Shown here one piece after another: positions 31,633 through 52,924 of a DNA stretch of 64,000 nucleotides. The DNA is taken from the NCBI RefSeq assembly GCF_002252705.1, contig NZ_NQLA01000008.1, positions 1 through 64,000 of the forward strand. Direction: 5' to 3'. Source of the DNA: Vulcanococcus limneticus LL. GTDB lineage: Bacteria; Cyanobacteriota; Cyanobacteriia; PCC-6307; Cyanobiaceae. The translations under genes and the position numbers were made by a program. Numbering within the stretch: the first letter of the stretch is position 1; each line of letters begins with the position of its first letter. A model generated the notes under the pieces. The model saw only the letters and a program-made list of their open reading frames with translations. It searched no databases and was not told where the DNA came from.

Positions 31633-31694
31633 AACGGAGGGGGTGGGATTCGAACCCACGGTGCCTTTCGGCACGCCGGTTTTCAAGACCGGAG
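31633..31694 (-). repeat. left attachment site: 3' remnant of tRNA-Ser(TGA)
   Basis: Sixty-two bp identical to 52687-52748. On the minus strand it contains the anticodon loop, variable arm, T-arm and 3' acceptor strand (31635-31694) but no D-arm or 5' acceptor strand, so it cannot make a tRNA. The match ends exactly at 31694, just 5' of the anticodon stem. Confidence 0.93.
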
Positions 31695-32024
31695 TAGTTG
31701 CCACAAGAATGCATGATAGGACTTGTCTTTTGGAGAGAGGGCGAATCTGCTTGACCACTTCTTGACCGCTGTGGTGTTGGATGCCTGGGCGGCCTCGCAA
31801 ACTTCCGCCAGATACCAGCCGAGAGATCGCCAGCAACGGACGGCAGGGACACGGATGGTTTTGAAATCATGGCGTGGAGTGCCTAGTCGGGGCGTAAGTA
31901 AGGCGGGGAGAAGCTTCTTGGACTCCTGCAGCAGGGCCACTTCACGCACCGCGGGGTCGCCGTAGGCAGCGCGGATGTGGATCCGGGCCCGGCGCACCAG
32001 GCGGTTCAAGCTGGCGTCCATCAC
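31683..32024 (-). CDS. hypothetical protein ending inside the attachment site
   Basis: A 113-residue basic frame of no recognised family (…VRRARIHIRAAYGDPAVREVALLQ…). Its GTG start (32024) overlaps the stop of the portal gene by 4 bp, as expected in a phage structural operon. Its stop codon is the TGA at 31685-31683, which is exactly the anticodon of the tRNA-Ser remnant. The C-terminus is therefore set by integration, and the protein is probably a truncated relic of a gene that continued in the ancestral phage or element. Confidence 0.4.
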   Translation of the reverse strand: MMDASLNRLVRRARIHIRAAYGDPAVREVALLQESKKLLPALLTPRLGTPRHDFKTIRVPAVRCWRSLGWYLAEVCEAAQASNTTAVKKWSSRFALSPKDKSYHAFLWQLLRS

Positions 32025-37571: not shown

Positions 37572-38020
37572 CCCAGGCCATCGCCTCAGGCCGTCCGGCC
37601 TACGAACTGCGCAGCAGGCAGCGCGGCCCCAGCGATCTGGAGCTGGAGGTGTGGCAGGTGCTCAGCACCGCCACCCCCGAACTGAAGGAGCCCAGGCGCG
37701 TTGCCGGCCTGGGCGGCCACAAGCTGCTGCTGGTGGAGGGGGCGGTGCTGCGGCGTCTCAAGGCGGAGAAGGTGAGCCTGGCCAAGCTCAAGAAGGGCGA
37801 GGCCCGCCGCGATCCCCTGTCTGAGGATCTGGCCCTGGCGATGGGCCTGCTGTTCAAGCTGCTGGCCCCGATGCGCAACGTGGCCGCGATCGAGAACTGC
37901 GCCCGCGGCATCGATGCCATGGCCCGCGAAGAGGCCGCCTACTGGCTGGGGATGGCCATGCACCGCAAGAACCCCAGACGGGTGCTGGCGGCGCTGCGAT
38001 TGCTGCTCTCGGCAACCTAG
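37568..38020 (+). CDS. small helical partner protein of the DUF499 module
   Basis: A 150-residue, mostly helical, lysine- and arginine-rich protein (LRRLKAEKVSLAKLKKGEARRDPLSEDLALAMGLLFKLL) with no membrane segment. It is translationally coupled to the DUF499 ATPase (ATGA overlap). I recall small proteins of this kind next to DUF499 genes in similar modules, but no domain name can be supported from sequence alone. Likely a complex subunit; function unknown. Confidence 0.65.
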   Translation: MTQAIASGRPAYELRSRQRGPSDLELEVWQVLSTATPELKEPRRVAGLGGHKLLLVEGAVLRRLKAEKVSLAKLKKGEARRDPLSEDLALAMGLLFKLLAPMRNVAAIENCARGIDAMAREEAAYWLGMAMHRKNPRRVLAALRLLLSAT

Positions 38021-38039
38021 CGATAACATTGGAGTTATC
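38000..38039 (+). promoter_or_regulatory. toxin-antitoxin promoter/operator with palindrome
   Basis: GATAAC-ATTGGA-GTTATC (38022-38039) is a perfect 6-bp-arm inverted repeat immediately upstream of the toxin start. TTGCTG at 38000-38005 and ATAACA at 38023-38028 are spaced 17 bp and overlap it, so binding by the HTH antitoxin could repress transcription. GGAG at 38031-38034 is the ribosome site for TTG 38043 and also lies within the repeat. Confidence 0.5.
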
Positions 38040-38042
38040 AGC

Positions 38043-38342
38043 TTGAACTGGGAGGTCGTCTTCTACTCGTTGCCAAGCGGCAAGCAGCCAGTCCTCGCCT
38101 GGCTTGCCGAGCAGTCGCCGGAGGTGCGCGCATCCTTCGCTCACCTGTTCGAGCTGCTCGAAAGGAACGGCACAGCCATGGGAGAGCCCCATGTGAAGCC
38201 CCTTGGCAAAAAGCTCTACGAGCTGCGAGTGAACGGACGCGATGGCACCTATCGCACGCTGTACTTCGCCGCGACGGGACGCCGGTTCGTGATGGTGCAC
38301 GGCTTCCAGAAAAAAACCAGAAAACACCCAAGGCCGAGCTAG
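38043..38342 (+). CDS. RelE/HigB-type (Gp49-like) toxin, C-terminus frameshifted
   Basis: A 99-residue frame from TTG 38043, eight bases after GGAG. The sequence is typical of Gp49-like RelE-superfamily toxins that cleave mRNA at the ribosome: PVLAWLAEQSPEVRASFAHLFELL, VKPLGKKLYELRV, and RTLYFAATGRRFVMVHGFQKKT. After a run of seven A (38310-38316) the frame ends early with HPRPS. The -1 frame instead reads KTPKAELDKALRRMADFL and stops at 38393-38395, one base before the antitoxin ATG, which is the normal family C-terminus. Either a one-base loss in the A run (mutation or sequencing error) or slippage expression explains this. Confidence 0.8.
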   Translation: MNWEVVFYSLPSGKQPVLAWLAEQSPEVRASFAHLFELLERNGTAMGEPHVKPLGKKLYELRVNGRDGTYRTLYFAATGRRFVMVHGFQKKTRKHPRPS

Positions 38343-38396
38343 ACAAAGCCCTCAGGCGCATGGCCGATTTTCTCGCCACCGACCCCACTCCCTGAC

Positions 38397-38744
38397 ATGA
38401 CCACTGCGGCAACCACCAACACGAGGCACCACCCCAGCTGGCGCGAAGTGCGCGATGGCTTCCTGGCTGACCCAGCGGTGCAGGTGTCGTATCAGGAACT
38501 GGCACCCCGTTTTGCGGTGGTGCGGCAGCTCATCGCCCTGCGAGAGCAGCGGGGCTTGAGCCAGCGCGAACTGGCCGATCGCGCCGGTATGAAGCAGCCC
38601 CAGCTGGCCCGCCTGGAAACCGGGCAGGTGGAACCCAAGCTCGACACGCTGCAACGACTCGCAACCGCCATGGGGTGCAGGGTTCGCGTGAGCTTCGAGC
38701 CCGCTGATCAAACCGCTGTGCAAGGAGAGCCCGCCCTGCCATGA
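38397..38744 (+). CDS. XRE-family HTH antitoxin (HigA-like)
   Basis: A 115-residue protein with a C-terminal helix-turn-helix: LIALREQRGLSQRELADRAGMKQPQLARLETGQVEPKLDTLQRLATAMG (about residues 42-92; quoted in pieces it contains SQRELADRAG and QPQLARLETG). The N-terminal part (WREVRDGFLADPAVQVSYQEL) is the usual toxin-contacting region in this arrangement. Gene order toxin then antitoxin is HigBA-like. It should neutralise the upstream toxin and autorepress at the 38022-38039 palindrome. Its stop overlaps the next gene by 4 bp. Confidence 0.88.
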   Translation: MTTAATTNTRHHPSWREVRDGFLADPAVQVSYQELAPRFAVVRQLIALREQRGLSQRELADRAGMKQPQLARLETGQVEPKLDTLQRLATAMGCRVRVSFEPADQTAVQGEPALP

Positions 38745-39910
38745 ACCTCAACGTCGTCTTTGATGTCCCGGCCCTGGTCGCCCAGGGGCTGATGAATGGC
38801 TCACTGGAGCGGGTGGGGGGTGTGGTGCGCGACGCCTCCAGCAAGCAGGTAGTGATGTGGCTGCAGGAGGGTGGGTCAGGGGTCTCGAAGGCCCTGACCA
38901 ATCCACCCTTGGCAGGGGGGGCGAATGCCCTAGCAGCTGCTAACCCTTATCTAGCAGCAGTCGATATCGGTGTATCTGTGGCTGGATTCGCGATGGTGCT
39001 CCAGCAGCTGAACCGCATCAGTGATCAGATCCGGGCCGTGGAGGCCAAGGTGGATCGGATCAGCCACAAGCTCGACGATCAGGCTCTGGCTCAGCTGAAG
39101 GCTGGTATCAATGCCTGCCAGAACGCGGTGGAACTTCAGGATCCGAACCTGCGGATCCAGATGGCAGGCCAGGCGCTCACCACCCTCCATGCCGCCCGTC
39201 AGTACTTCAATCAGCAGGTAATACGCAGTGCGGGAAAGGCGGAAGCCACCAGCGCTGAATACGTGGGCTTGGCGTTTGTGGCCCTTGCTGCCGAAGTGCA
39301 GACCTACCTGCAGCTGGATGAAGGCGCCAAAGCCGCCCGAATCCTGACGCAGGGCCTGGAGGAGCTGCGGCCAGGGCTCACCCAGCTGATGAATGCCGTA
39401 CTGGATTGCACGTGCCATTACCTCAAGCCTGAGTTCGCCGGTCAGGTTGACCTGGATCTGATTCTCTGGCTTCACAACGGGTTCCGACGAATGAAGTGCA
39501 AGCCAGGTGAATCTGTCGAGCAGCTCAGCGCTTCTGAGCTGTTTGAGATCATGCGGCCCCACATCACCAAGGTCTTCAAGAGCCACGAGGATTGGCACGG
39601 TGAGATCCCCCAGGTGATCGTCGACACCAGTGATGTCCCTGATTGGTGGATTGGTCCTCTGAACCAGGGCACAGACAAGGCTGCTCGATTCAGGCAGGTG
39701 AAAGAGGAGCTCGCCGAAGGCCTCAACAAGATCGTTGCGTTGGTGGAAGCACACGACAGGCTGATAGCCCAGGTACTTCAACTCGAAGAGATGGAGCGAT
39801 TAGGGCTGAAGCCCATGGATCTGAAGCAGCAGCTCTTGCTACCGGAGGGCCCGGCGTCTGCCGTTGTTCTTGATGCTCGTTGGATTGCCCAGGAGGCTTG
39901 GTCCAGATGA
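38741..39910 (+). CDS. unknown 389-residue protein with hydrophobic segment and coiled coil
   Basis: Not recognised. It begins MNLNVVFDVPALVAQGLMNG, followed by a segment with DASSKQVVMWLQEGG and a small-residue hydrophobic stretch with AAANPYLAAVDIGVSVAGFAM (about 65-85). A predicted coiled coil with ISDQIRAVEAKVDRISHKLDD (about 92-112) follows, then a long helical body. A short hydrophobic hairpin before a coiled coil is reminiscent of membrane-acting effectors, but no fold can be claimed. It is coupled to the antitoxin by a 4-bp overlap, so it is expressed with the TA pair, inside the DUF499-DUF1156 module. A role as effector or structural subunit is speculation. Confidence 0.7.
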   Translation: MNLNVVFDVPALVAQGLMNGSLERVGGVVRDASSKQVVMWLQEGGSGVSKALTNPPLAGGANALAAANPYLAAVDIGVSVAGFAMVLQQLNRISDQIRAVEAKVDRISHKLDDQALAQLKAGINACQNAVELQDPNLRIQMAGQALTTLHAARQYFNQQVIRSAGKAEATSAEYVGLAFVALAAEVQTYLQLDEGAKAARILTQGLEELRPGLTQLMNAVLDCTCHYLKPEFAGQVDLDLILWLHNGFRRMKCKPGESVEQLSASELFEIMRPHITKVFKSHEDWHGEIPQVIVDTSDVPDWWIGPLNQGTDKAARFRQVKEELAEGLNKIVALVEAHDRLIAQVLQLEEMERLGLKPMDLKQQLLLPEGPASAVVLDARWIAQEAWSR

Positions 39911-40028
39911 ATTTCTTCATGACACACTTGTCATCTTTCAAGTACAGACATGATCAGCTTGAGACGCTCGGACTGATACATGTTGATTCTTATCGTCGCG
40001 GCGAGGTCCCCAGGGGGTACAACTAGCA

Positions 40029-40634
40029 ATGGATAACACTGCTCATTTGGCTCTTGATGCCGTTGTGGCCGCCACGGGGTCGACAAAGTCAACCACCGGA
40101 CAGCTTGATCTAAGAGTTTATATCCCCTTATTCTCGTTTGTTGGAGCTCTATGTGGAAGTATTGTCGCAGCCTTCGCTCAGGTTCAGATCGCAAGGTTCA
40201 ACGCAGATCGCTCGGACAGGTCCAGGCTCGCAGCCCGAAGGGAAGAGATTGTCTCGGAGGGAATTTTAGGGCTAATTAGGCTCGACCCATGCAGCAAGAA
40301 AGACGGTGAAGCAAACCAGCTTGCTTTGCGATCTGCGAATTCCATTAAGCTATTTCTCGACGATAACAGAATGGCTGACAAGAGACTGGAGGAGTCCGTG
40401 GACACTCTCATTCATCTGTACTCGTGTATAGCCAACCCAAGTCAGGACGAAGAGCTTGTGGACAGGATCATGAGCCTGGAAGATCCGGATTCCGATGCCA
40501 GCAGTATCGAAATAGAACGACTTGAAGATTTGCTGGAGCTCTTGGAGGATGCCCGCACCGAAGCTCTCATGGCAGCAAGAGAACTGATCGCAGACGATAG
40601 GGCGAGGCTGCAAAGTCAATCCGCGCCGCGTTAA
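40029..40634 (+). CDS. single-pass membrane protein, unknown
   Basis: A 201-residue protein with one N-terminal membrane helix (YIPLFSFVGALCGSIVAAFA, about 31-50) and a long charged, helical C-terminal domain (RSRLAARREEIVSEG..., IEIERLEDLLELLEDARTEAL). It is AT-richer than the flanking genes, preceded by a 118-bp AT-rich gap, and ends 2 bp before the DUF1156 methylase start. No family recognised. Its position between module genes suggests either a membrane-anchored accessory of the defence system or a passenger insertion. Confidence 0.65.
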   Translation: MDNTAHLALDAVVAATGSTKSTTGQLDLRVYIPLFSFVGALCGSIVAAFAQVQIARFNADRSDRSRLAARREEIVSEGILGLIRLDPCSKKDGEANQLALRSANSIKLFLDDNRMADKRLEESVDTLIHLYSCIANPSQDEELVDRIMSLEDPDSDASSIEIERLEDLLELLEDARTEALMAARELIADDRARLQSQSAPR

Positions 40635-40636
40635 TC

Positions 40637-43600
40637 ATGATAGATATCGCCAAACGCCTGATCGAAGAGTGGCTGCCGATCGCCGAGCTGGGTGAGGAGA
40701 GCATGCGCGAGCGGCGCTCGATGACGGCCCTCCCACCGATCTATTACCTGCATGTGTGGTGGGCGCGGCGGCCGCTGGTGGCCTCGCGGGCGGCGGTGCT
40801 GGCGTCGTTGCTGCCTGCCGATGCCGATCGAAGCACGTTTATGCACATGCTCGGGATTCATGGGGATCCGGTCGCGGCGAAGAAGCGGATCACCAAGGCC
40901 AAGAAGACCGGAGAGGATCTCGGGCTGAATGTGTATGGCTATCCCCGGGCGTTCCAGTACAGCCCCAGTGACGAGGAGGAGATCTGGTTGCTGGAGGAGG
41001 CCCAGAAACTCGGTATCGAACACCCCACAGTGCTGGACCCCACTGCCGGTGGTGGATCCATTCCTTTTGAGAGCCTCAGGCTGGGTTGTAAGACCCTGGC
41101 TAACGACATCAATCCTGTCGCGGTGTTGGTGCAGAAAGCCACCTATGAGTGGCCGGCTGAGCACGGACGGGCGTTGCTCGATGAGTTCAACCGGCTGACG
41201 AGCCGTTTTCTTGAACTGGCAGAGCCGCGGTTTCAGACCATCTACCCTTCCGAGCCTGCAGGCACTCAGGTGCTCGGCTACCTCTGGGCTCGCACGATCC
41301 AATGCCCCTACTGCGCTGGCAAGGTGCCGTTGTCTCCCAACTGGAAACTGGCGCCTGACGGCACCGGCGTGAGGGTGTTGCCGCAACTTGGTGATGGACC
41401 AGGCGATACCAATCGTCACTGCCGTTTCGAGATCGTGGGCAGCGCACGCGAACAGAGCGACGGCACGGTGAAGGGCGGCGATGCAACCTGCCCCTATCCC
41501 GACTGTGGCCGGGTGATCGACGGCGATCAGGTGAAGGCCCAGGCCCAGGCCGGGGGCATGGGTGAGCAGTTGTTTGCGGTGGTCTTCAAGAAGCAGGTGA
41601 TCACGGGTTATACCAAAGCAACGAAGAAGAAACCCGCCAGCCCGAAGATCAAGTGGGAGCGGTGTTACCGGGTGCCACAACCGCAAGACGACAACAGCGC
41701 CGCAATCGAAGTTGCCTTAGCCGAAAAGCTGCCGGAATGGGAAGCTCTTGACTCTATACCTTCTGAAGAAATTCCTCCTGGACACAAGACAGGCGACCAC
41801 AACGACGCCTCGGGCACTGACTTGCCTCTTAAGAGAGGCGACACCCACTGGGTGAAGATGTTCTCGCCCCGCCAGTTGCTTTGCCATGGCATCAGTGTGG
41901 AGATCTTCCGCGAGCTTGTGAGCGAAGAGTCGGCCAAGCCTGGTGGGCTCACAGATGCCGCCCGCTCAGTTCTCGCCTACATCGCCCTCGCGCTCGACAA
42001 GCTGCGCGACTATAACTCGCGCATGACGCGTTGGCACAGCAACCGCGAAGTCATTGTCAACACCTTTGACCGCCATGACTTTGCCTTCAAGTGGTCCTAT
42101 GCCGAGATGGCTCCGCTCATCGTCGGGCTTGGCTATGACTGGGCCTTCGGGCAGGTCGCCAAGTGCATCGGTGAGCTCATCGACCTCATCGCTCCGCCAA
42201 ATGGGTTGATTGCTGAAGCCGGTCCCTTGTTTTCAGCTAGTGCAGCTTCAGCTCACCCCAGCCCTATAGCTCCAGCAGTGATCTCCTGCAGCTCCGGTGA
42301 TTCTCTGGATCATCTCGACGCAGGCACAGTGGATGCGGTGGTAATGGACCCTCCTTACTATGACAACGTGATGTATGCGGAGCTGAGCGACTTCTTCTAC
42401 GTGTGGCTCAAACGAACTGCTGGTCTGCTCTACCCCGAGCTGTTCATGGCTCCTCTCACCGACAAGGAGAACGAGGCCGTTGCCAATCCTGCGCTACACA
42501 AAGGAAAGAAGGCGGCGAAGGCTCTGGCTGGTCTCGACTACCAGCAGAAGATGGCCGAGATCTTTGCGGAGTGTCGACGTGTCCTGAAGGACGACGGGGT
42601 GATGACGCTGATGTTCACCCACAAGGCCACCGGGGCCTGGGATGCGCTCACCAAGGGGCTGATTGATGCCGGCTTCGCCATCACGGCGTCCTGGCCGATC
42701 AACACCGAGGCGGAGGGCTCGCTACATATCAAAGACAAGTCCGCCGCCAACAGCACGATCTTTCTGGTCTGCAGGCCGCGTCCTGAACAGAAGCCAGAAG
42801 ACGGCGTGCAGTACTGGGAAGACCTCGAACCCCGCGTGAAGGCTGCTGTGCGTCGGCGCATCGAGCAATTCCAGGCCGGTGGAATCAGGGGTGTGGATCT
42901 CTACCTCTCGTGTTTCGGTCCAGCCCTGGAGGAGTTCTCCCTGCACTGGCCCATCAAACGCGGTCAGCCCAAGCCCATCGAGGAGAAAACAAGAAAGCGC
43001 GGACGTGCCCAGCTCACCTTGGAGGAGCTGCTGGAGCAGGACGATCCCTATTCCGTGAGCCCGGAAGACGCTCTCGATGCCGCCCGCCGCGAGGTAAAGG
43101 CCTGGCGCATGGAGAAGCTCACCTCTGGATCCCGTCGTGCCCAGCTCGATCCCCTCACCGAATGGTTCGTGCTGGCCTGGGATGCCTTCGAGGCACCGCA
43201 GTTCCCCTTCGATGAAGCCCTGCGCTTGGCCCGTGTCGTCGGCCTCGATCTCGACAAGGACGTGGTGGGCGTGCTGGCCGAGAAGAAGGCCAGCGATCTG
43301 ATCCTCTGGGACAGTTCCACCCGCGCCACCAAGGGCAAGCTTGGCGCCCCCGATGGCACCCGCTCCTGGATCGATGCCATCCACCACTGCGCCCACCGCG
43401 CCCGCAGCATCGACCTCAACGCCGCCAAGCAGCTACTCGATGACAACGGCCTGGCCAACAGTGCCGATTTCCTCACAGCCCTGGAGGCCGTGCTGGAAGT
43501 GCTGCCCCTCTCCGCTCGCTACACCGGCTTCGATCCGGTGAAGGCCGCCGCGCCTGCCGCGTCGGACTTCGAGGCACTGGAGAATCTGCGTCGCCTCGCC

Positions 43601-43669
43601 CTGGCTGAGCAGGTGCCAGCGCCCAAGCAGCTGGAGCTGGTGCTCGCTGAGTTGGCCGAGGCATCCTGA
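40637..43669 (+). CDS. DUF1156 adenine-type DNA methyltransferase with zinc ribbon
   Basis: A 1,010-residue methylase of the DUF1156/COG1743 family. The N-terminal DUF1156 signature (EESMRERRSMTALPPIYYLHVWWARRPL, in part) is followed by the SAM-binding loop VLDPTAGGGSIPFE (about 134), an inserted zinc ribbon (CPYC around 227 and CPYPDC around 287), and the catalytic motif VVMDPPYYDNVMYAELSDFF (about 573). DPPY is typical of N6-adenine (or N4-cytosine) methyltransferases. The C-terminal 250 residues are family-specific. It probably marks host DNA for a restriction-like system comprising the ATPase and the PLD-helicase. Same strand as all module genes; the MNT gene follows after 17 bp. Confidence 0.9.
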   Translation: MIDIAKRLIEEWLPIAELGEESMRERRSMTALPPIYYLHVWWARRPLVASRAAVLASLLPADADRSTFMHMLGIHGDPVAAKKRITKAKKTGEDLGLNVYGYPRAFQYSPSDEEEIWLLEEAQKLGIEHPTVLDPTAGGGSIPFESLRLGCKTLANDINPVAVLVQKATYEWPAEHGRALLDEFNRLTSRFLELAEPRFQTIYPSEPAGTQVLGYLWARTIQCPYCAGKVPLSPNWKLAPDGTGVRVLPQLGDGPGDTNRHCRFEIVGSAREQSDGTVKGGDATCPYPDCGRVIDGDQVKAQAQAGGMGEQLFAVVFKKQVITGYTKATKKKPASPKIKWERCYRVPQPQDDNSAAIEVALAEKLPEWEALDSIPSEEIPPGHKTGDHNDASGTDLPLKRGDTHWVKMFSPRQLLCHGISVEIFRELVSEESAKPGGLTDAARSVLAYIALALDKLRDYNSRMTRWHSNREVIVNTFDRHDFAFKWSYAEMAPLIVGLGYDWAFGQVAKCIGELIDLIAPPNGLIAEAGPLFSASAASAHPSPIAPAVISCSSGDSLDHLDAGTVDAVVMDPPYYDNVMYAELSDFFYVWLKRTAGLLYPELFMAPLTDKENEAVANPALHKGKKAAKALAGLDYQQKMAEIFAECRRVLKDDGVMTLMFTHKATGAWDALTKGLIDAGFAITASWPINTEAEGSLHIKDKSAANSTIFLVCRPRPEQKPEDGVQYWEDLEPRVKAAVRRRIEQFQAGGIRGVDLYLSCFGPALEEFSLHWPIKRGQPKPIEEKTRKRGRAQLTLEELLEQDDPYSVSPEDALDAARREVKAWRMEKLTSGSRRAQLDPLTEWFVLAWDAFEAPQFPFDEALRLARVVGLDLDKDVVGVLAEKKASDLILWDSSTRATKGKLGAPDGTRSWIDAIHHCAHRARSIDLNAAKQLLDDNGLANSADFLTALEAVLEVLPLSARYTGFDPVKAAAPAASDFEALENLRRLALAEQVPAPKQLELVLAELAEAS

Positions 43670-43686
43670 GCCCAGGAGGTGCAGCC

Positions 43687-44037
43687 ATGACCACCACGCC
43701 CAGCTCTGCCATCAGCGAAGCCCAGCTGCAGCAGATGGCTGCCGAGATCCACCAGGAGATTCCAGGGGCTGAGGTGCGCCTCTTTGGTTCCCATGCCCGA
43801 GGCGAGGCTCGCCCCGAGTCCGACATCGACCTGCTGATCACGGCAAACGACGGCTGGCTGGCGCAGCACAACCGCTTCGAAACCCTGGGCCGGCTCTGGC
43901 GCAAGCTCGCCCATCACCGCATCCCTGTCGATCTGCTGCTCTACTCCCAGAGCCAGGTGGAGGAGCGGCGCCACTGGCTCAGCCACGTGATCGCCCGGGC
44001 CTATCGCGAAGGGCGGGTGCTGCATGGCCAACCCTGA
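43687..44037 (+). CDS. MNT-type minimal nucleotidyltransferase
   Basis: A 116-residue polymerase-beta-like nucleotidyltransferase. The active site is clear: LFGSHARGEARPESDIDLLI (GSxxxGxxxxxSDxDL) with a third carboxylate in IPVDLLLYSQ. In MNT/HEPN pairs the MNT protein acts as antitoxin, in characterised cases by adenylylating the HEPN toxin. It overlaps the HEPN gene by 14 bp. Located between the methylase and the helicase-nuclease, it may regulate the module rather than form an independent addiction pair. Confidence 0.9.
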   Translation: MTTTPSSAISEAQLQQMAAEIHQEIPGAEVRLFGSHARGEARPESDIDLLITANDGWLAQHNRFETLGRLWRKLAHHRIPVDLLLYSQSQVEERRHWLSHVIARAYREGRVLHGQP

Positions 44038-44407
44038 ATCCCTGGCTCTGCTGCGGATCGCTCGCCGCGACCTCAGGGCTGCAGCTCTGCTGGAGGATCC
44101 TGCCGCGGATGAAGCCAACTGGGGTTTCCAGATCCAGCAGGTGGTGGAGAAGGCCCTCAAGGCGTGGCTGTTCAGCCTGGGCGACGATCCGCCCTTCATC
44201 CACAACCTCACCGCGCTGTTTCAGCGGATCACCGATCGGGGCGGCACTGTTGACCCCTTCCTGCAGCTGGAAGCGTTCACTGCCTTTGCTGTGCAGTTCC
44301 GCTACGACGCGGAGCCCGAACCGATGAACCTCGACCGCCAGTTCTGGCAGCAGCAGGCCGAGGCCCTGGTGGAGCACGTCGCTTCGATCTGTGCAGCGCT
44401 GCCATGA
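44024..44407 (+). CDS. HEPN domain protein, lacking the RX4-6H motif
   Basis: A 127-residue helical HEPN protein: RIARRDLRAAALLEDP, then WGFQIQQVVEKALKAWL and FIHNLTALFQRI, ending with FRYDAEPEP and a helical tail. This is the family's usual layout, but I find no arginine 4-6 residues before a histidine, the motif of ribonucleolytic HEPN toxins. It may be a non-nuclease HEPN that binds nucleotides or partners. It overlaps the MNT gene (14 bp) and the helicase gene (ATGA, 4 bp), so all three are co-translated. Confidence 0.85.
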   Translation: MANPESLALLRIARRDLRAAALLEDPAADEANWGFQIQQVVEKALKAWLFSLGDDPPFIHNLTALFQRITDRGGTVDPFLQLEAFTAFAVQFRYDAEPEPMNLDRQFWQQQAEALVEHVASICAALP

Positions 44408-47400
44408 GCGGGCTTGCTGATCACCAATGGCGTCGTCGCTTCAGCAGCTCCCTGGAGAGCCTGCTGGAGGGCTTCTACAGGCCAGCCCTGATGGATGCGG
44501 TGCGCTACTGGCGCATCACGGGCTACTTCACCAGCCGCTCCCTGCTCCAGGTGCTGGACGGCGTCGAGCAGCTGGTGGCCTCCTCACCCGACGGGCGTGG
44601 CCATGGCCAGATGCGGCTGATCACCGGTGTGTTCCTCAACGAGGCCGACATCCGCGCCCTGGCTACCGGCAGCAGCCCCGAGCAGGTGCTCAGCCAGAGC
44701 CTCACGGCCAACTTCCCCTTCCGGCAGGTCCAGCCCGGCGACAACAGCGACGCTGCCAAGGGCGCTGAGCTGCTGGCCTGGCTGGTGCAGCACGGGCACC
44801 TGGAGATCCGGGTGGCGCTGCCCCTCCATCAGGGCCAGTTGGCCAACGACGGCTCGATCTTTCACGCCAAGGAAGGCGTGGTGGAAGATCGCCACGGCGA
44901 TCGCCTGGGCTTCAGCGGCAGCGTCAACGAAACGCCCAACGGCTGGACCAGCAACTTCGAGACCATCCAGACCTTCTGCTCCTGGAAGCCGGGCGGCGCC
45001 GAGACCATCGACGATCTGGAGGCCGGTTTCCTGCGCCTCTGGCAGAACCACGACGAAGGCGCCCGCACCTTCACCCTGCCGGAGGCGGTGCGCCAGCAAC
45101 TGGCGATCTTCCAGCCGGTGGAAGGCGTGCCCCGCCGGCTCAAGCCCTACCTGAAGGATCTGCCATCCCCTGAGCCACAGCCTGAGCCCCCAGGTGAGGT
45201 GATCCCTGATCTCGACGAACGGCGCCGCATCATCTGGAGCTACGTCCTCCATGCCGCCGCCAGTGGTCTCCCCGGTAGTGAGAGGGTGGGTGAGGCCACC
45301 AGTGCGGTGAGCCCGTGGCCCCACCAGCAACGTGCCTTCCAGCGGCTCTGGCAGCACTGGCCGCCCCGCCTGCTGATCGCCGATGAGGTGGGTCTGGGCA
45401 AAACGGTGCAGGCCGGCCTGTTGCTGCGGCAGTCCTGGCTGAGTGGCAGAGCCAGCCGAATCCTGGTGATGGCACCGGCCTCGGTGCTCAAGCAGTGGCA
45501 GCGGGAACTGCGCGAGAAGTTCGCCCTCGACTGGCCCGTCTACACCGGCAAGGCGCTGGAGTGGCAGTCCACCTGCCTGCGGCCCAAGGGTGAATCCCGG
45601 CCCGTGGGCCGCGACGCCTGGACTGCTGAACCGTTCGTGCTGGTCTCCAGCCACTTGATGCGCCGCCGCGATCGCCAGCGCGAGCTGCTGGAGGCCGAGC
45701 CCTACGACCTGGTGGTGCTCGACGAGGCCCACCACGCCCGCACCCGCCGCGAAACCAGTGCCAGCGGTGGTGATCGACTGCGCCCCAACACCCTGATGCA
45801 GCTGATGCAGCAGCTGCGCTCCCGCACCCAGGGCCTGCTGCTGCTGACTGCCACGCCGATGCAGGTGAGCGAGCTGGAGGTGTGGGATCTGCTGTGCCTG
45901 CTCGGCATGCCCAGCGAATGGACCGAGGAGGCCTTCGAGCGGTTCTTCGAGTGGGTGGAGAAGGAGAACCCGGATGAAGCCACCCTCTCCTATCTGGCGG
46001 GCCTCTGGCGCAGCAGCGTGGCGGCGTTCGACGAGCCCCCGGCCACGGCCTGGCCTGAGCAGCTGCGGCGCTCACCGATGAAGAAGAAGAAGGTGCTCAA
46101 GGCCCTCAAAGACACCGATCCCCTCTCCCGCCGCAACCTCGGCATTCCCGAGCGCCAGGCCGCCCTTGCCCTGGCCAAGCGCTGGACCCCGGTGCAGGGC
46201 CTCATCTCTCGCCACAGCCGCACGCTGCTGCGGGCCTACAAGCAGCAGGGGGCGATGGATCTGGCAATCGGCACCCGCCATGTCGACGATCGCTTCCTGC
46301 CGATCAGCACCGACGAGCGGGCCCTCTACGACGCTGTGGAGGACTTCATCTCCACCCAGTACGCCCGGGCCTCCGGTCAGAAGAAGTCGGCTGTGGGCTT
46401 CGTGATGACCATCTACCGCCGCCGCCTGGCCAGCAGCGTGGCGGCCCTGGTGGCCACGCTGGAGAAGCGGATGGCCGGCCAGCTCCAGCAGCTGGAGGAA
46501 GACGCCGCAGCAGCGGAAGACGACGACATCAGCGGGGAGCAGACCTTCGACCTGGAGGGGCTGGAAAGCGCCTTCGAGGAGGTGTCCGTGCAGGACGAGC
46601 TGGATGCCATCGCCGCCCTGCTGGAGCAGGCCCGGCCGCTGGTCGGACACGACAGCAAGGGCACGGAGTTCCTGGCCGCCATCGAGCAGCTCCAAAACCA
46701 GGGCTACCGACAGGTGATCGTCTTCTCCCAGTACACCGACACAGTTGATGCCCTCAAGCAGCTGTTGATCGAGGCGGGCCGCACCAGCCTGATGTGCTTC
46801 ACGGGGCGGGGCGGAGAGCTGTTGCAGCGCGGCGGCACTTGGACAAACCTCAGCCGCGAGGACGTGAAGCGCGACTTCAAGGCGGGCAAGGCCGAGATCC
46901 TGCTCTGCACCGATGCGGCGGCCGAGGGCCTGAACTTCCAGTTCTGCGGTGCCCTGATCAACTACGACATGCCCTGGAACCCGATGAGGGTGGAGCAGCG
47001 CATCGGCCGTATCGACCGCATCGGCCAGACCCATGACCAGATGCAGATCATCAACCTCCACCTCGACGGCACGGTGGAGGCGGACGTCTACAAGGCTCTC
47101 AAAGGCCGCATCGCCATGTTCGAGCAGGTGGTGGGCAAGCTGCAGCCGATCCTGGCCAAGGCCTCCAGCTCGATCTCCCAGGCCACCCTCGTCAGCCGCG
47201 AGCAGCGCGAGAAGGCACGCTTCCAGGCGGTGGATGCCGTCATGAGTGAGCCCGAGATCAAGGGTCTCGATCTCGACGATGGCCTGCAGGACCTGGAGGC
47301 CATCCGCGATGTGGTGGCACAGCCGCCACCGCTCACCTTGGCCGACCTGGAGGCGATCCTCGATCGCCCCGAACTCCTCCCACCCGGCTGCAGCGCCACC

Positions 47401-47619
47401 CGGATCGGAAAGTGCGACTTCAAGTGGACCCAGCCCGGCCTCGAACAGGAGCTGCGCATCACCTGTGACCCGCAGTACTACGAAGATAATAGCGACAGCT
47501 GTGAGCTTTGGGTGCCGGGAAGTCCGCTATTCCCCCTTGATCTAGTGCCAAGCCTGCAAGCTCTTAGCGGCACTGAAGCCACATCTGATTTCAAGAAAGC
47601 ACTTACCGGGATGTACTGA
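44404..47619 (+). CDS. PLD-nuclease/SNF2-family helicase fusion
   Basis: A 1,071-residue protein. The N-terminal phospholipase-D-like domain (about 1-220) has one HKD-type motif, FHAKEGVVED, followed by LGFSGSVNETPNGW. A single motif implies dimerisation to form the nuclease site. Then an SF2/SNF2 helicase: Walker A ADEVGLGKTVQAG (about 328), motif II VVLDEAHHAR, motif III LLTATPMQ, and C-terminal motifs TDAAAEGLNFQ and EQRIGRIDRIGQ. Such fusions are common in restriction-like and DISARM-type systems, where they translocate on and cleave foreign DNA. It is the last gene of the operon; no clear terminator follows within about 100 bp. Confidence 0.92.
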   Translation: MSGLADHQWRRRFSSSLESLLEGFYRPALMDAVRYWRITGYFTSRSLLQVLDGVEQLVASSPDGRGHGQMRLITGVFLNEADIRALATGSSPEQVLSQSLTANFPFRQVQPGDNSDAAKGAELLAWLVQHGHLEIRVALPLHQGQLANDGSIFHAKEGVVEDRHGDRLGFSGSVNETPNGWTSNFETIQTFCSWKPGGAETIDDLEAGFLRLWQNHDEGARTFTLPEAVRQQLAIFQPVEGVPRRLKPYLKDLPSPEPQPEPPGEVIPDLDERRRIIWSYVLHAAASGLPGSERVGEATSAVSPWPHQQRAFQRLWQHWPPRLLIADEVGLGKTVQAGLLLRQSWLSGRASRILVMAPASVLKQWQRELREKFALDWPVYTGKALEWQSTCLRPKGESRPVGRDAWTAEPFVLVSSHLMRRRDRQRELLEAEPYDLVVLDEAHHARTRRETSASGGDRLRPNTLMQLMQQLRSRTQGLLLLTATPMQVSELEVWDLLCLLGMPSEWTEEAFERFFEWVEKENPDEATLSYLAGLWRSSVAAFDEPPATAWPEQLRRSPMKKKKVLKALKDTDPLSRRNLGIPERQAALALAKRWTPVQGLISRHSRTLLRAYKQQGAMDLAIGTRHVDDRFLPISTDERALYDAVEDFISTQYARASGQKKSAVGFVMTIYRRRLASSVAALVATLEKRMAGQLQQLEEDAAAAEDDDISGEQTFDLEGLESAFEEVSVQDELDAIAALLEQARPLVGHDSKGTEFLAAIEQLQNQGYRQVIVFSQYTDTVDALKQLLIEAGRTSLMCFTGRGGELLQRGGTWTNLSREDVKRDFKAGKAEILLCTDAAAEGLNFQFCGALINYDMPWNPMRVEQRIGRIDRIGQTHDQMQIINLHLDGTVEADVYKALKGRIAMFEQVVGKLQPILAKASSSISQATLVSREQREKARFQAVDAVMSEPEIKGLDLDDGLQDLEAIRDVVAQPPPLTLADLEAILDRPELLPPGCSATRIGKCDFKWTQPGLEQELRITCDPQYYEDNSDSCELWVPGSPLFPLDLVPSLQALSGTEATSDFKKALTGMY

Positions 47620-47808: not shown

Positions 47809-47842
47809 CGCATACGTTGTGATTGTCCCACCCCTCTCAGGA

Positions 47843-47862
47843 CTCCGCGCAATCTCGCGGAG
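47843..47862 (+). promoter_or_regulatory. hairpin covering the ribosome-binding site of the primase gene
   Basis: CTCCGCG-CAATCT-CGCGGAG forms a 7-bp perfect stem whose 3' arm contains GGAG, the likely Shine-Dalgarno for ATG 47874 (11-nt spacing). Folding would hide the site and limit replication-protein synthesis. Confidence 0.45.
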
Positions 47863-47873
47863 AATGTATAAAG

Positions 47874-50774
47874 ATGGCCGATCGTGAGAAGAACCAACCA
47901 GAAGAAAGCACCACTCCGCCCTCGGGGGGCAAGCAGCTGCCGCCTCCTGGTTCACCCCTGGAGTGGCTCCGGGCCGGGGTTTTTCCCGAGGACTGGACCC
48001 TGATTCCGGTGGCGGGCAAGGCCACCTACATCAAGGAATGGGGTGACCACAAGCGGCGGCGGATCGACTCGGAGGGCCTGTTCTTCGAGGACAGCCGGTA
48101 CAACGGCTTTGGGGTCGTGACCGGGGAGCTCTCGGGGGGACTGATCGCCCTGGACGTGGACGGCAACCAGGCGGATGCCCGGTATCGGACGGAGGCCGGC
48201 GGGGGCTATGAGGCCTACGGCGAGGAGCAGACCATGAGCTGGACGTCCGGGAAACCCGGGCGCCGGCAGCTGCTGTACCGGGTGCCGGAGCACATGGTGC
48301 CCCTGATGGCCGACATCAACACCGTGATCCTGCGGGAGGACGGGGAGTGGGCCCTGGGCCAGGGGGACACCAACCGGACCAAGAAGGAGCAGGCCGGCGA
48401 GGAGTACGAGGAGCTGGTGCTGCGGTTCAACCGCTGCCAGTCGGTGCTGCCGCAGAGCATCCACCCGGACACTGGGCAGCGGTATCGGTTCCTCAACTAC
48501 AACGGCGGCCAGCCGGCGGAGGCGCCGGAGTGGGTGCTCGAGGTGATCAGGCCCCACCTGAAGGCGAAGGCCTGGCTGTCCGAGGAGGAGATGGGGCAGC
48601 TGGAGGCGGAGGCGGGCAAGACCCTGCTGCCGAGCCGGCAGATCCGCGGCTGGTTCTTCTCCGAGGAGGTGCAGAGCAAGCTGCTGCCGCGGCTCGATGA
48701 GCTGATCTTCAAGCACCCCACCTTCGACCAGTACGGGTGGGACATCAGGCCCGGGAAGAACCCGCAGATGATGAGTGGCTGCCCCTGGCACGGGGGCAAG
48801 TCGGGCACCAGCTTCCAGTATTCGGAGCTCTCGGGGTGCTGGGACTGCAAGGCCTGCGGGGTCGGTGGCGATGTCTTGGACTTCGTCCACAAGATCAAGA
48901 CCGGGGACAAGTTCGCAGGGAAGCCCAAGGGGCCGGCTCTGGAGAACTACGTCGCGGAGATCGCCAAGGAGCTGGGGTATCGGTATCCCGATGACGCCCA
49001 GGCGGTGGTGCGGACTGAGGTTACGGCCCGGCCCCAGCTGCTGATGACTTCGGAGGGCTTCCTCAAGACACTAAGCAAGATCATCAAGGAGCACCCCAAC
49101 CCGGCTCACGCCAAAGACTTGATGGCGGATCTCGCCATGAGGACTGGGCGGCGGATGTCGGCGATTGACTGCATCAGGGCGGAGCAGGAGTACAGCGCCT
49201 ATGTGCTGGCCCAGAAGACCAATGACAAGCCCTGGTGGCAGATCGAGAAGATGACCTTCACGATCCCGGGCCTGATGATGCGGCCGACGCAGATCATCCT
49301 GCATGCGGCCCCGGGGAAGGGGAAGACCTCTGCTGCCATGGGGTTTGCACGGATGGTGGGGCGCGGGGAGCCCATGACGATCCGGGGCATTCAGGTGCCG
49401 ATCCAGGCCGGGAAGGTCTTGTGGATCCAGAACGATCAGAACCCCGCGAAGCTGGTCAGGGACTGCGAGGACAACGGGATCGATCCTGAGAAGGACTCGG
49501 ATTGGTTCATCGTGAGGCGCAGCTTCCAGATGAACTACGTCGCGGACCTGACGGAGTGGATCAATGAGGTCAAGCCGGCCCTGGTGGTGATCGACTCGAT
49601 CGGCTCCTGCTCTACAGACATGCAGGAGCAGGAGAAGGACAAGGCGTTCGCGTCGCCGCTGTACTACTACAGCCGGATGAATGGTGAGAGTCTCGACCTC
49701 GGGGGGTTCAATCCCTGCACCATCATGTGGATCCACCACGACAACGCGCAGGGGGAGGTGCGGGGCACCCGCTACCTGACTGCGGCGGTGGACGAGCAGT
49801 GGCACCTCCGGGACCTGACGGACCAGGAAAAGGAGCAGGTCCGGGCCAAGGGGAAGGTGGCCAGCAACTGCCGCTTCATCCAGGTCAAGAAGAGCCGGAT
49901 GGGCCGGGAGGGCGACCTGCTGATGGTGGAGCGGGACATCCAGGGCACCTACAGCGTCTGGGACCACACGCCGACCGAGAGGCGCACCGATGAGGGGCAG
50001 GGGGACCCTGAGCCGTCGACGATGGCGCTGCGGATCGTCAGGGACCGTGCTCGGGGGGAAGGGCCCCCGGAGGAGCGCCGGATCGCTGCGCCGGAGGTCT
50101 GGGAGCAGCTGGTGGAGGAGCTGCACGGCCTCGGGGTGAGTGACGCTCCCTCGCGGCGGACGGTGGAGCGCTGGCTGCGCCGCTGGGTCGAAGACGGGGT
50201 TCTCGTCCTCGGGGGGATCGTCACGACGGGCAAGTCTCGGACCAAGACCTATACGACACCCACCCCCCCTCGTGTGGGGCGGTCGTTGGAGTGTCGCTTG
50301 TCGCTCGTTACCTCAAACCCCAGTGGTGGTGGGGATTTAACGAGCGACACGGAGGACGCCAACGAGCGACATGTCGCACGTAAAACGGAGGAGCCAACGA
50401 GCGACATGTCGCTCGTCCCCGAGGACGGTGTCGCTCGTACAAACCCAGTCGTAGAAAGCGATCTGACCCAACGCGCGACAAGCGGCACCTTTTCAGATGC
50501 ACCGATTGGCTCATCGCACACAGACACCACTGAGACCCATGGCGAGAAAGGGAAATCGGCTGGCGCACCGGCAGGCGGCGCTGTGGAAGGCCTACAAGGC
50601 GTTGGCGGAGGTGAGGCCCGGCCTCTCCCCCGAGAGCGTGATGAGGATGCTCCAGGAGATCGAGCAGACGGAGCAGGAGAGGCCCTCAGAGGCGAGGCGG
50701 CGACAGCACTCGATTTCAAGTCACTTCTGTCCCATCAGTCCTGGTGGGACAGCTATGAGACCGCCTTTGGGTAA
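47874..50774 (+). CDS. primase-polymerase / RecA-like ATPase replication protein
   Basis: About 966 residues from ATG 47874. The N-terminal prim-pol domain has VVTGELSGGLIALDVDG (the DxD metal site). A zinc finger of CHC2 type follows (CPWHGG and CWDCKACGVGGDVLDF, about 300-345). A RecA/AAA_25-like ATPase has Walker A HAAPGKGKTSAA (about 475) and Walker B LVVIDSIGS. A winged-helix region (RRTVERWLRRWVEDGVL) precedes a disordered C-terminal tail encoded by the iteron-like repeats. This combination is typical of replication proteins of satellites, plasmids and integrative islands. It is plausible that it primes or initiates replication of the excised island from the repeat cluster. Confidence 0.85.
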   Translation: MADREKNQPEESTTPPSGGKQLPPPGSPLEWLRAGVFPEDWTLIPVAGKATYIKEWGDHKRRRIDSEGLFFEDSRYNGFGVVTGELSGGLIALDVDGNQADARYRTEAGGGYEAYGEEQTMSWTSGKPGRRQLLYRVPEHMVPLMADINTVILREDGEWALGQGDTNRTKKEQAGEEYEELVLRFNRCQSVLPQSIHPDTGQRYRFLNYNGGQPAEAPEWVLEVIRPHLKAKAWLSEEEMGQLEAEAGKTLLPSRQIRGWFFSEEVQSKLLPRLDELIFKHPTFDQYGWDIRPGKNPQMMSGCPWHGGKSGTSFQYSELSGCWDCKACGVGGDVLDFVHKIKTGDKFAGKPKGPALENYVAEIAKELGYRYPDDAQAVVRTEVTARPQLLMTSEGFLKTLSKIIKEHPNPAHAKDLMADLAMRTGRRMSAIDCIRAEQEYSAYVLAQKTNDKPWWQIEKMTFTIPGLMMRPTQIILHAAPGKGKTSAAMGFARMVGRGEPMTIRGIQVPIQAGKVLWIQNDQNPAKLVRDCEDNGIDPEKDSDWFIVRRSFQMNYVADLTEWINEVKPALVVIDSIGSCSTDMQEQEKDKAFASPLYYYSRMNGESLDLGGFNPCTIMWIHHDNAQGEVRGTRYLTAAVDEQWHLRDLTDQEKEQVRAKGKVASNCRFIQVKKSRMGREGDLLMVERDIQGTYSVWDHTPTERRTDEGQGDPEPSTMALRIVRDRARGEGPPEERRIAAPEVWEQLVEELHGLGVSDAPSRRTVERWLRRWVEDGVLVLGGIVTTGKSRTKTYTTPTPPRVGRSLECRLSLVTSNPSGGGDLTSDTEDANERHVARKTEEPTSDMSLVPEDGVARTNPVVESDLTQRATSGTFSDAPIGSSHTDTTETHGEKGKSAGAPAGGAVEGLQGVGGGEARPLPRERDEDAPGDRADGAGEALRGEAATALDFKSLLSHQSWWDSYETAFG
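50292..50480. repeat. iteron-like cluster of ACGAGCGACA, possible replication origin
   Basis: The decamer ACGAGCGACA or its complement TGTCGCTCGT occurs at 50299-50308, 50340-50349, 50362-50371, 50397-50406, 50407-50416 and 50429-50438. One-mismatch copies lie at 50292-50301, 50372-50381 and 50471-50480. Copies at 50397-50416 form a perfect 20-bp palindrome ACGAGCGACATGTCGCTCGT; those at 50362-50381 a near-perfect one. The cluster lies in the 3' end of the primase gene. Confidence 0.7.
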
Positions 50775-50984
50775 GCACAGTCATCACACAACTGCGCCAT
50801 AGCAGTTGAAGCCAGGGGCTAGCGGAAGCCAGCCAGCCCCTTCCTCCTCTGCAAGATGACAAGAAGAATCCCAGACTCAGATATTAGCCAGCAAACCCCA
50901 AGAGGGAAACGCCACATACATACAGCCTGCACCCGCTAAGCGACTACAAAGACAGAAGCAAGTGGGCTTACAATAGAGACCCGA

Positions 50985-51010
50985 GTCATTCTGACTGCGC
51001 TCAGGATGAC
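50985..51010. terminator. inverted repeat between primase and excisionase-like genes
   Basis: GTCATTCTGA-CTGCGC-TCAGGATGAC has 10-bp arms with one G-T wobble, 30 bp past the stop of the minus-strand gene at 51041. No T-run follows on either strand, so termination is uncertain; it could also be a protein site. Confidence 0.4.
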
Positions 51011-51040
51011 CAGCTCCGTATCACCCTTAAATCGCCGAAG

Positions 51041-51334
51041 TCAGACTATACCGAGGTCACGGAGCACTATTTCTCGGTGATAACGATAGACAAAGCCTGT
51101 GCCGCGTGGAATCTTTTTGTAGGATGCCCTGGACAGGCGATCTGCATTGACGTAGTTCTGCAGCGTCCGTGGAGTCACACCAACAAGCTTGCCCATGTCA
51201 GCTGGGGTGAGCCAGATTCGGCTCGAGGCAGAACGATCCTTGTCGACCTGATCTAGTCGGCTACGGAGATGACGGATCTCCAAGAGAATCTCCATCTGGA
51301 GACGCATGGGATCCAGGGAGTTGGTTGCTTCCAT
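51041..51334 (-). CDS. small HTH DNA-binding protein, excisionase-like
   Basis: A 97-residue protein from ATG 51334. It has an N-terminal helical segment with MEILLEIRHLRSRLDQVDKD and a MerR/AlpA-like helix-turn-helix WLTPADMGKLVGVTPRTLQNYVN followed by a short wing (KIPRGTGFVYRYH). Size, fold and position 56 bp downstream of the integrase suggest a recombination directionality factor or repressor. The open frame upstream belongs to an antisense reading of the integrase and is not coding. Family assignment is by pattern only. Confidence 0.7.
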   Translation of the reverse strand: MEATNSLDPMRLQMEILLEIRHLRSRLDQVDKDRSASSRIWLTPADMGKLVGVTPRTLQNYVNADRLSRASYKKIPRGTGFVYRYHREIVLRDLGIV

Positions 51335-51390: not shown

Positions 51391-52536
51391 TCAGGCGCTC
51401 GCTACCGCCATGGCGGCCCGCAGATCGGAGGCCTGGATGTGGGAGTGGTAGGTCTGCTCGTGGACCGCGGCGCTGTGGCCCAGGGCCCGGGCACACAGCG
51501 TCAAGGGCAGGCCGGCCTCGATGCTGCGCACGGCCCACCGGTGCCGCAGGTCGTAGAGGTCGAACTCGGGGGCCAGGGCGGCGAAGACGGCCCGCTGGGC
51601 TTTGGTGCGGCGGCTGTGGCGCCAGGCATCCACGAAGCGCTTGGCCTGGGCGGAGTCGTAGTCCTCGGGGGAGAGCCAGCGGGCGCCGCCGGGCAGGGCC
51701 GGTTTCCCCCCGAGGGCGTAGCGATCGACCCAGGCCCGGGGCAGGGCGAAACAGGTCCGCACCGCTGGCGCCCGGTTGCGGCGCTTCACCGTGAGGCACT
51801 GGGCGGTTCCATCGGCATGCAGCTGCAGGGAGGGGACCTCCGCGGGGCGGCAGCCGAAGGTGGCCAGGGCGGCGTAGCACCAGCCCCAGGGGGTTGGGCG
51901 CAGGGCATCCAGCAGGGCCTCGATCTCGGGGTCGGTGGGCAAGGCCCGGCGGGCCGGCTCGTAGTGACCCTGCAGGCGCGAGATGTCGTCCAGGTTGCCT
52001 GGCAGCGCCAGCAACTTCGCCAGGCGCTTGTAGACCTTGCAGCTCTCGAGCCTGGTGCGGGTGCCGGGCTGCGTTGCAGCCGTGATGGTGGCCACCAGCT
52101 GGCGCAGCGTGCAGGGGGCGCCCTCGGGGAGGCGGCGGAGCTCCAGGGCGATGCGGTCCCAGGTGCGCTCCGCCGCGGAGGTGCGGGGCCGGGCCTCCCA
52201 GTAGGACACCTCGAAGCGGCGGATGGCGGCCCCACAGGAGAGGGGGGCGCCTTCGGCGGACCCTCGCCCCGAGGACGGTGGCGCCGCAGGCGCCCAGGGC
52301 AGGGCCGGGGGGTAGGTGCCGGCCGCGATGGCGGCGTTCAGCTGCAGGCAGCGGAGCTGGGCTTCGGCGAGGACGGAGGGGGTGGCGCGGAGGCCCAGGG
52401 CGACCCGGCTGCGCCGGCGGGAGCCGTCCGGTTGGGGGAAGGTGCCCCGGGCGTAGAGGGCCTGGTTCAGCTGCTCCACACTGAGGCGGAGGCCCAGGCC
52501 CCGCAGGGTGGCGTTGAGGGGGGCCAGGTCGAGCAT
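51391..52536 (-). CDS. tyrosine recombinase / integrase
   Basis: A 381-residue phage-type integrase that would recombine the 62-bp tRNA-Ser repeats. The catalytic domain shows arginine I in AALATFGCRPAEVPSL, box II DLYDLRHRWAVR (the first histidine of the HxxR motif replaced by tyrosine, a common variant), LGHSAAVHEQ and the nucleophile tyrosine in QTYHSH. The N-terminal half is a divergent arm/core-binding region. It is transcribed away from the tRNA, 150 bp from the right attachment site, the standard arrangement for tRNA-targeting islands. Confidence 0.92.
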   Translation of the reverse strand: MLDLAPLNATLRGLGLRLSVEQLNQALYARGTFPQPDGSRRRSRVALGLRATPSVLAEAQLRCLQLNAAIAAGTYPPALPWAPAAPPSSGRGSAEGAPLSCGAAIRRFEVSYWEARPRTSAAERTWDRIALELRRLPEGAPCTLRQLVATITAATQPGTRTRLESCKVYKRLAKLLALPGNLDDISRLQGHYEPARRALPTDPEIEALLDALRPTPWGWCYAALATFGCRPAEVPSLQLHADGTAQCLTVKRRNRAPAVRTCFALPRAWVDRYALGGKPALPGGARWLSPEDYDSAQAKRFVDAWRHSRRTKAQRAVFAALAPEFDLYDLRHRWAVRSIEAGLPLTLCARALGHSAAVHEQTYHSHIQASDLRAAMAVASA

Positions 52537-52686: not shown

Positions 52687-52748
52687 AACGGAGGGGGTGG
52701 GATTCGAACCCACGGTGCCTTTCGGCACGCCGGTTTTCAAGACCGGAG
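52687..52748 (-). repeat. right attachment site within tRNA-Ser(TGA)
   Basis: Perfect 62-bp copy of 31633-31694, here part of the intact tRNA gene. Flanking bases differ on both sides (G at 52686 versus A at 31632; C at 52749 versus T at 31695), which fixes the repeat limits. Confidence 0.93.
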
Positions 52749-52773
52749 CCATCAACCACTCGACCACCCCTCC
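52689..52773 (-). tRNA. tRNA-Ser(TGA), integration target
   Basis: An 85-nt type II tRNA. The acceptor stem GGAGGGG pairs with CCCCTCC, the anticodon stem-loop is CCGGT-CTTGAAA-ACCGG (anticodon TGA), a long variable arm (GCGTGCCGAAAGGCAC) follows, and the T-arm has GGTTCGAATCC. Integration at the 3' half leaves the gene intact because the island supplies an identical 3' end. Confidence 0.95.
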
Positions 52774-52924
52774 AGGCCCATGGGCCAGAGCCCATCATCC
52801 CATGGACAGCTCGGACCCCTTGCACTCCAGATGGCGCCAAGGCTGGTTGATAGGGCCGGCAGGTGCGGCAAGGGTGCCCGATCCGGCCTAGTCTCCAGCC
52901 GCCAGACGCAGGATTGGAGCAGTG

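Follow-up and report, generated by a model that had tools for sequence, protein, structure and literature searches.

A dyad-symmetric array of 10-bp units in the primase-helicase gene of a Vulcanococcus limneticus tRNA-Ser island as a likely replication origin

The window, by which we mean the whole 64-kb stretch of Vulcanococcus limneticus LL DNA analysed here, contains a 21-kb island at a tRNA-Ser gene, with 62-bp perfect direct repeats, an integrase and defence-like genes (Table 1). The integrase-like ORF near the right end matches the PHROG integrase family with E=1.4e-7, and the Pfam family Phage_integrase below the cut-off. With this limit on the Pfam match, the island has the organization of tycheposon-like elements and phage satellites, namely an integrated element bounded by a tRNA and carrying a tyrosine recombinase. 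In a search of 47-53.5 kb against Rfam with a permissive threshold, the tRNA alone attained its family gathering score. At the left end of the island, a portal-like gene (32021-33139, minus strand; Phage_portal_3, PHROG portal) may be read as a phage remnant or a part of a satellite. The cargo (34473-47619) encodes a DUF499/HmaC-like ATPase, a DUF7680 protein, a DUF1156/HmaB-like methylase, a nucleotidyltransferase-HEPN pair and a PLD-SNF2 helicase; it is perhaps an Hma- or DISARM-related defence system, possibly a variant.

The island also encodes a primase-helicase of 983 residues, for which Pfam gives Prim-Pol, Zn_ribbon_DnaG and AAA_25 only, none of which points to homology with lambda O. 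A profile search of the PDB with the primase alignment gave nothing at E<=0.01. With AlphaFold2, residues 732-827 were modelled with a recognition helix at about 778-791 and wing strands at about 795-802 and 805-811. The confidence of this model is moderate (pLDDT 71, pTM 0.55) and weakest past the recognition helix. When it was submitted to Foldseek, no match was obtained at E<=0.001, the best ones including a PadR-DNA complex (5x11) and a replication terminator-DNA complex (1f4k).

In the last quarter of this gene, past the predicted winged helix, we found ten copies of the 10-bp unit TGTCGCTCGT over 196 bp, on both strands and in all three reading frames. Six are exact (TGTCGCTCGT/ACGAGCGACA), three have one mismatch and one has two. 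A previous sequence-only reading had announced at least six exact and three near copies on both strands and a perfect 20-bp palindrome, all of which our count confirms; it had given the right start for the cluster but had ended it at 50480, seven bases too early. The palindrome is the sole perfect one of 20 bp in the window and is unique in the genome. Six of the seven copies of the exact 10-mer in the 3.55-Mb genome are in the array; as a control, the unit pattern read backwards has 12 occurrences genome-wide. In 2000 synonymous recodings, keeping the same peptide and the gene's own codon usage, no 10-mer reached more than 3 copies, against 6 observed. For the register, the exact copy at 50299 was set to 0, plus-strand units being recorded by their first base and minus-strand units by their last base in plus coordinates. 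The plus-strand units are then at -7, 0, 73, 108 and 130 and the minus-strand units at 50, 72, 107, 181 and 188, and each of the ten sites has a mirror partner, within 1 bp, about 50389. The repeat cluster is thus real, as had been claimed, but its ordering principle is this dyad symmetry, which was absent from the earlier reading.

Table 1. Coordinates in the window of the island ends, the replication genes and the units of the array
Feature	Position	Strand	Remark
Left attachment repeat, 62 bp	31633..31694		copy of the 3' part of tRNA-Ser
Primase-helicase	47823..50774	+	Prim-Pol, DnaG-type zinc ribbon, AAA_25, predicted C-terminal winged helix; array in its tail
Segment coding residues 732-827 (structure prediction)	50016..50303	+	winged-helix order
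Dyad-symmetric array of ten 10-bp units (proposed origin)	50292..50487		centre about 50389
Unit -7	50292..50301	+	TGTCGCTTGT, 1 mismatch
Unit 0	50299..50308	+	exact
Unit 50	50340..50349	-	exact
Extra unit 72	50362..50371	-	exact; imperfect 20-bp palindrome with unit 73
Unit 73	50372..50381	+	TGTCGCACGT, 1 mismatch
Unit 107	50397..50406	-	exact; left half of perfect 20-bp palindrome
Extra unit 108	50407..50416	+	exact; right half of perfect 20-bp palindrome
Unit 130	50429..50438	+	exact
Unit 181	50471..50480	-	1 mismatch
Unit 188	50478..50487	-	2 mismatches
Integrase-like ORF	51391..52536	-	weak Pfam match; PHROG integrase
Right attachment repeat	52687..52748		overlaps tRNA-Ser(tga) 52688-52774

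One relative of the primase, 91% identical, is encoded on contig C41 of the genome analysed here, another (69%) in Synechococcus sp. CS-1329, and many more, 41-61% identical, come from IMG/VR. Among 25 genomes of the genus, a primase match was found in the own genome only; 32 of the 400 other genomes of the family that were searched had a match, many of these being short Prim-Pol matches. By tblastn, the primase gave no match in 50,697 phage records and matched 33 plasmid records, all below 60% identity and none covering 80%.

We took as a starting set 96 loci with a primase ORF, from which those with no winged-helix anchor (L019, L022, L075, L082, L083, L096) or with too short a region (L062, L069) were dropped. 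A set of 53 non-redundant regions excludes overlapping duplicates of one place (L001, L032, L085-L087), regions of less than 400 bp and regions more than 90% identical to one included. We observed that most relatives carry an array at the same place, each with its own unit. The best 8-mer count averaged 7.4 in the 53 array regions versus 4.9 in control stretches taken further upstream in these genes (Wilcoxon p=5e-9), and in 37 of the 53 it was above all 60 codon shuffles. For 11 of the other 16 (L007, L011, L015, L026, L033, L036, L037, L038, L041, L042, L077), 1-5 of the 60 shuffles reached the count; for the remaining ones 7 (L044), 25 (L094), 29 (L034), 40 (L095) and 60 (L089) did. L044, L089 and L094 have 6-7 sites once the scan window is shifted, the arrays of L034 and L081 are degenerate and that of L095 is not detectable by the scan.

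In the subfamily of the window, 18 distinct arrays could be read at fixed positions, -7, 0, 50 and 73, then 120/142/193/200, the second half being at 107/130/181/188 instead in the window, C41 and CS-1329. Several of the 18 (for example L007, L011, L018) have degenerate outer sites, and L026, L033, L034 and L035 have a different spacing. Taking the majority at six sites as the unit of each element, we obtained TGTCGCTCGT for the window, TGTCCCTCGT for C41, TGTCCATCGTT for L004, TGTCCGTTCAT for L014, TGTCCATTGCT for L007, TGTCCCTATAT for CS-1329 and TGATACTTCTT for L020. The arrays of a second subfamily, whose proteins share 41-46% identity with that of the window, occupy the same position and consist of 6-11 sites of the TGTCCAAAACC type.

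An array that is in frame with the ORF in most elements, and that in the window includes a period-35 tandem duplication (50349-50416), could be a low-complexity peptide tail grown by slippage. We consider the chance that these are such coding repeats to be negligible: the units use both strands and all three frames, synonymous recoding fails to generate the array and the array is not always coding. In L044 and L089 the whole array lies beyond the stop codon, and the sites of L089 (413, 458, 486, 526, 554, 599) are mirror-symmetric too. Only the first two sites of L003 fall within the ORF, six being beyond its end, and in L031 a stop codon precedes the last two units. Since the array is beyond the stop in two elements and the ORF stops inside it in two others, these sequences indicate that selection is on the DNA and not on the peptide, as had been proposed from the window alone. 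The sequence-only reading had also looked to related islands for the same unit at the same place, of which the place held and the shared unit did not, each element having a unit of its own. It had named, as observations that would speak against it, repeats absent from related islands and a conserved peptide with no conserved DNA symmetry; we found arrays in most related elements, and the symmetry is kept where the peptide is not.

We then compared the units with the recognition helix and the wing in 22 arrays. With classes that were defined after the units had been seen, wing class and unit class agree in all 20 members of the four classes that have more than one member, L002 and L020 being singletons. 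At unit positions 8-10, the wing G[SA]DKPV goes with T[GC]C (8/8), GQ[RN][RK]P with TCA (7/7), K[AT]PV with CGT (3/3) and the wing of the window and C41 with CGT (2/2). L020 is the only array-bearer of the 22 with QL in the recognition helix, and the only one in which the TGTC core is changed to TGATA. In an association scan of 503 variable primase columns with backbone distance controlled, the top residues for unit positions 3-11 were 779, 806, 808 and 805, which are in the recognition helix and the wing, and nine of the top 15 columns fell within 745-822 (p=6e-6, a value that ignores relatedness). With unit positions 6-11 alone, 5 of the 15 top columns were in the winged helix (p=0.02); with positions 3-5 alone there was no such enrichment (2/15, p=0.53).

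Partial Mantel tests were carried out on the 15 arrays of one spacing, a set that does not include the window, C41 and CS-1329. Wing and unit were correlated (r=0.43, p=0.0006) when controlling for the backbone, the spacers between sites and the DNA that separates wing from array, as were helix and unit (r=0.50, p=0.0012) when controlling for the backbone, the spacers, the intervening DNA and the wing. For the DNA between wing and array, r was 0.02 given the backbone; for the spacers, it was 0.25 given the backbone and -0.04 given backbone, wing and helix.

In the second subfamily, which was not in the scan, the wing KGGRP is accompanied by AAAACC in 20 of 20 rows, two of which have one undetermined base and many of which are closely related, and AAAACC is found in none of the four rows with another wing. 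L065 and L068 have a common helix, SEKTVKRWV, and different wings, and their units are TGTCCAAAACC and TGTCCGTAAAT, respectively. L044 and L089, which have KGGRP too, have units ending in AAAAC(C). An exception is L092, with KGGRP, another helix and the unit CGTGAAACAACC. At the position of E782 of the window, where most have K or R, L077 and L091 have Q, and they have in common with the window a G at unit position 5; as a further exception, L064 and L067 have E at 782 like the window, yet TGACC and TGnGC where the window has TGTCG. The correspondence between helix, wing and unit is therefore not a simple residue-to-base table. Taken together, the units covary with the recognition helix and the wing to an extent not accounted for by backbone relatedness or local linkage, with exceptions that lie outside the main subfamilies. 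This argues strongly, on computational grounds, for a specific reading of the units by the winged helix of the primase.

Eight pairs of elements were compared along the gene. In three pairs that are 95-99% identical over the preceding 2.2 kb, the sequences part at about the wing, stay different across the array and then become near-identical again. L014 and L025 share 99.3% identity in the roughly 2.2 kb ahead of the helix and 47-85% between the wing and the end of the array, after which the values rise to 93-100%. L065 and L068 are 95.4% identical before the helix, drop to 53-67% and recover from 600 nt on. For L018 and L029 (97.2% before the helix), divergence begins slightly earlier and extends across a tail that differs in length between the two, as far as about 660 nt. 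In the other five pairs, with 75-95% identity ahead of the helix, identity likewise dips over the array. Because identity drops from the wing through the array and then recovers, wing and array appear to be replaced as one cassette. As the two seem to travel together, the arrays are not independent, and the 22 arrays represent fewer events.

Could the array be selected for the fold of one strand, as a stem-loop or cruciform origin of the pRN1 type, and not for units read by sequence? Passages of PMC4234260 report that pRN1 requires a 100-nt stem-loop downstream of the PrimPol gene. The window array folds far better than shuffled sequence (z -6.7), all 18 folded arrays have z between -3.2 and -16.5, and in the 15 arrays of one spacing the dyad complementarity outside the units is 43% versus 21-33% off register. 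However, most of this complementarity falls in almost invariant stretches (12-38 and the mirror positions), part of which is the motif CCCCGAGRNCG, the other spacers being near background. In 18 arrays, the similarity of sites that would pair, as neighbours or across the dyad (0.794 and 0.794), does not exceed that of non-partners on opposite strands (0.806), and compensatory changes maintaining a conserved fold, as in the pRN1 type, were not found across them despite the strong folding energy. In addition, the covariation with helix and wing is not predicted by a fold, and we consider that selection for a fold is unlikely to explain the array. As to unwinding, the window array is at the 74th percentile of instability at 100 bp, with no marked AT-rich unwinding element; the nearest weak stretch is at 50852-51050, about 365 bp downstream. 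As a mean over 49 loci, AT content in the array stretch is 3-6 points above that of its locus. Given both the lack of a marked AT-rich element at the array and the strong folding of the strand, we therefore keep a contribution of a stem-loop as a possibility.

The covariation shows only that the primase most likely binds the units, as it would also do if the array were an operator through which the winged helix regulates its own operon, an antisense RNA or the next gene, and not replication. One weak promoter-like match is present downstream (50856-50885), and the gene after the primase in L008 and L045 encodes a DNA polymerase. Against such a role, the array sits at the 3' end of the gene, and a sigma-70-type scan gave no promoter-like match within the array. 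In the elements of the window, C41 and CS-1329, the primase has no ORF of polymerase size directly behind it, and an operator with 8-10 sites set on a fixed dyad spanning about 200 bp would, in our judgement, be unusual. We hold this explanation to be improbable, somewhat more so than selection for a fold.

Our preferred reading, to which we give a probability of roughly 0.78, is that the array serves the excised island as its replication origin in cis, bound by the winged helix of the island's own PrimPol-helicase. Binding of the units by the winged helix is well supported computationally, and origin function is most likely by analogy with the Rep proteins of SaPI and SCCmec (Cch2) and with lambda O. 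Passages of PMC7581432 describe SaPI Rep/ori and SCCmec Cch2 as, like here, an integrated island, a helicase with a C-terminal DNA-binding domain and short repeats at the 3' end of its gene. Their helicases are of the DUF927 or D5 type, whereas that of the window is AAA_25, and their sites are downstream of the gene, whereas here they are inside it in most elements. Lambda O is not known to be a primase or a helicase. Iterons with inverted symmetry inside the initiator's own gene are described for ori-lambda in passages of PMC5043065 and PMC7466680, and the window array is likewise a cluster of short repeats inside the ORF of the presumed initiator. The lambda iterons adjoin an AT-rich tract; none is evident at the window array. 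ORF904 of the crenarchaeal plasmid pRN1 resembles the window protein in having PrimPol, helicase and a winged helix at the C-terminus, and the 3' end of its gene likewise holds an essential element. Its helicase is of SF3, in place of AAA_25, and its element, in the same passages of PMC4234260, is a stem-loop without iterons, in place of repeat units. The PrimPol-PV1 supergroup, with a RepA-type helicase and a WH domain, is alike by domain order, and a role of this WH domain in origin recognition was proposed in passages of PMC5862659, which do not name a cognate site.

We infer that the winged helix at the C-terminus of the primase-helicase would bind each 10-bp unit, its recognition helix reading the near-constant 5' part (TGTC and the next base) and its wing the element-specific 3' part. 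Because the sites are mirror-symmetric, the bound protein would be set in two opposed groups, which could nucleate two oppositely facing helicase rings, opening the DNA and priming synthesis; the origin would fire after excision. A role of the winged helix in PrimPol origin recognition has already been suggested in print, and what is unusual here is how legible the specificity code is. The present reading proposes a cognate site for a class of PrimPol-helicase initiators for which the papers found name none, and a naturally occurring code of protein-DNA recognition, represented by dozens of matched pairs. In the literature titles and abstracts that we searched, subscription papers being mostly beyond reach, there was no description of these arrays.

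L008 and L045, in which the polymerase gene is followed by an integrase gene, resemble temperate phages or prophages. In the islands of the window and of C41, the primase, the array, the integrase and the tRNA are retained alongside defence-like cargo; these islands would be reduced, phage-derived elements that have kept their own initiator and origin. The C41 element (L115, C41:1-19000) is a second island-like region of the same genome with the same replication module, a different integrase (27% identical), a tRNA-Pro(ggg), and helicase and methylase genes resembling a restriction system. No direct repeats of at least 16 bp of the tRNA-Pro gene were found in the examined stretches of the C41 and CS-1329 elements. 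More tentatively, and with odds that we place a little below even, wing and array may form one specificity cassette, about 0.35 kb long and exchangeable, which would define a compatibility group and be swapped between cyanobacterial phages and defence islands. Within their common cell, the islands of the window and of C41 have different units and recognition helices, and would in this way keep their origins without cross-talk; the code might then be legible enough to predict the origins of relatives. If true, this would suggest how related defence-carrying mobile elements can share a cell, with the same replication module and different specificity cassettes.

Some minor observations were made around the arrays. 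Downstream of the window array, a 101-residue ORF (50497-50802) overlaps the primase gene in another frame, with no match in Pfam and PHROG. By eye, the arrays of L020, L044 and L089 are flanked by GC-rich alternating stretches, GCGTGCGTTG on the left and CACGCG-rich on the right, which are present also where the array is non-coding. The motif CCCCGAGRNCG has 66 occurrences in 38 of the 53 array regions, versus 8.8 expected from the rest of the same loci, and stays constant while the units change, for example at 50417 in the window and also in L033 and L044.
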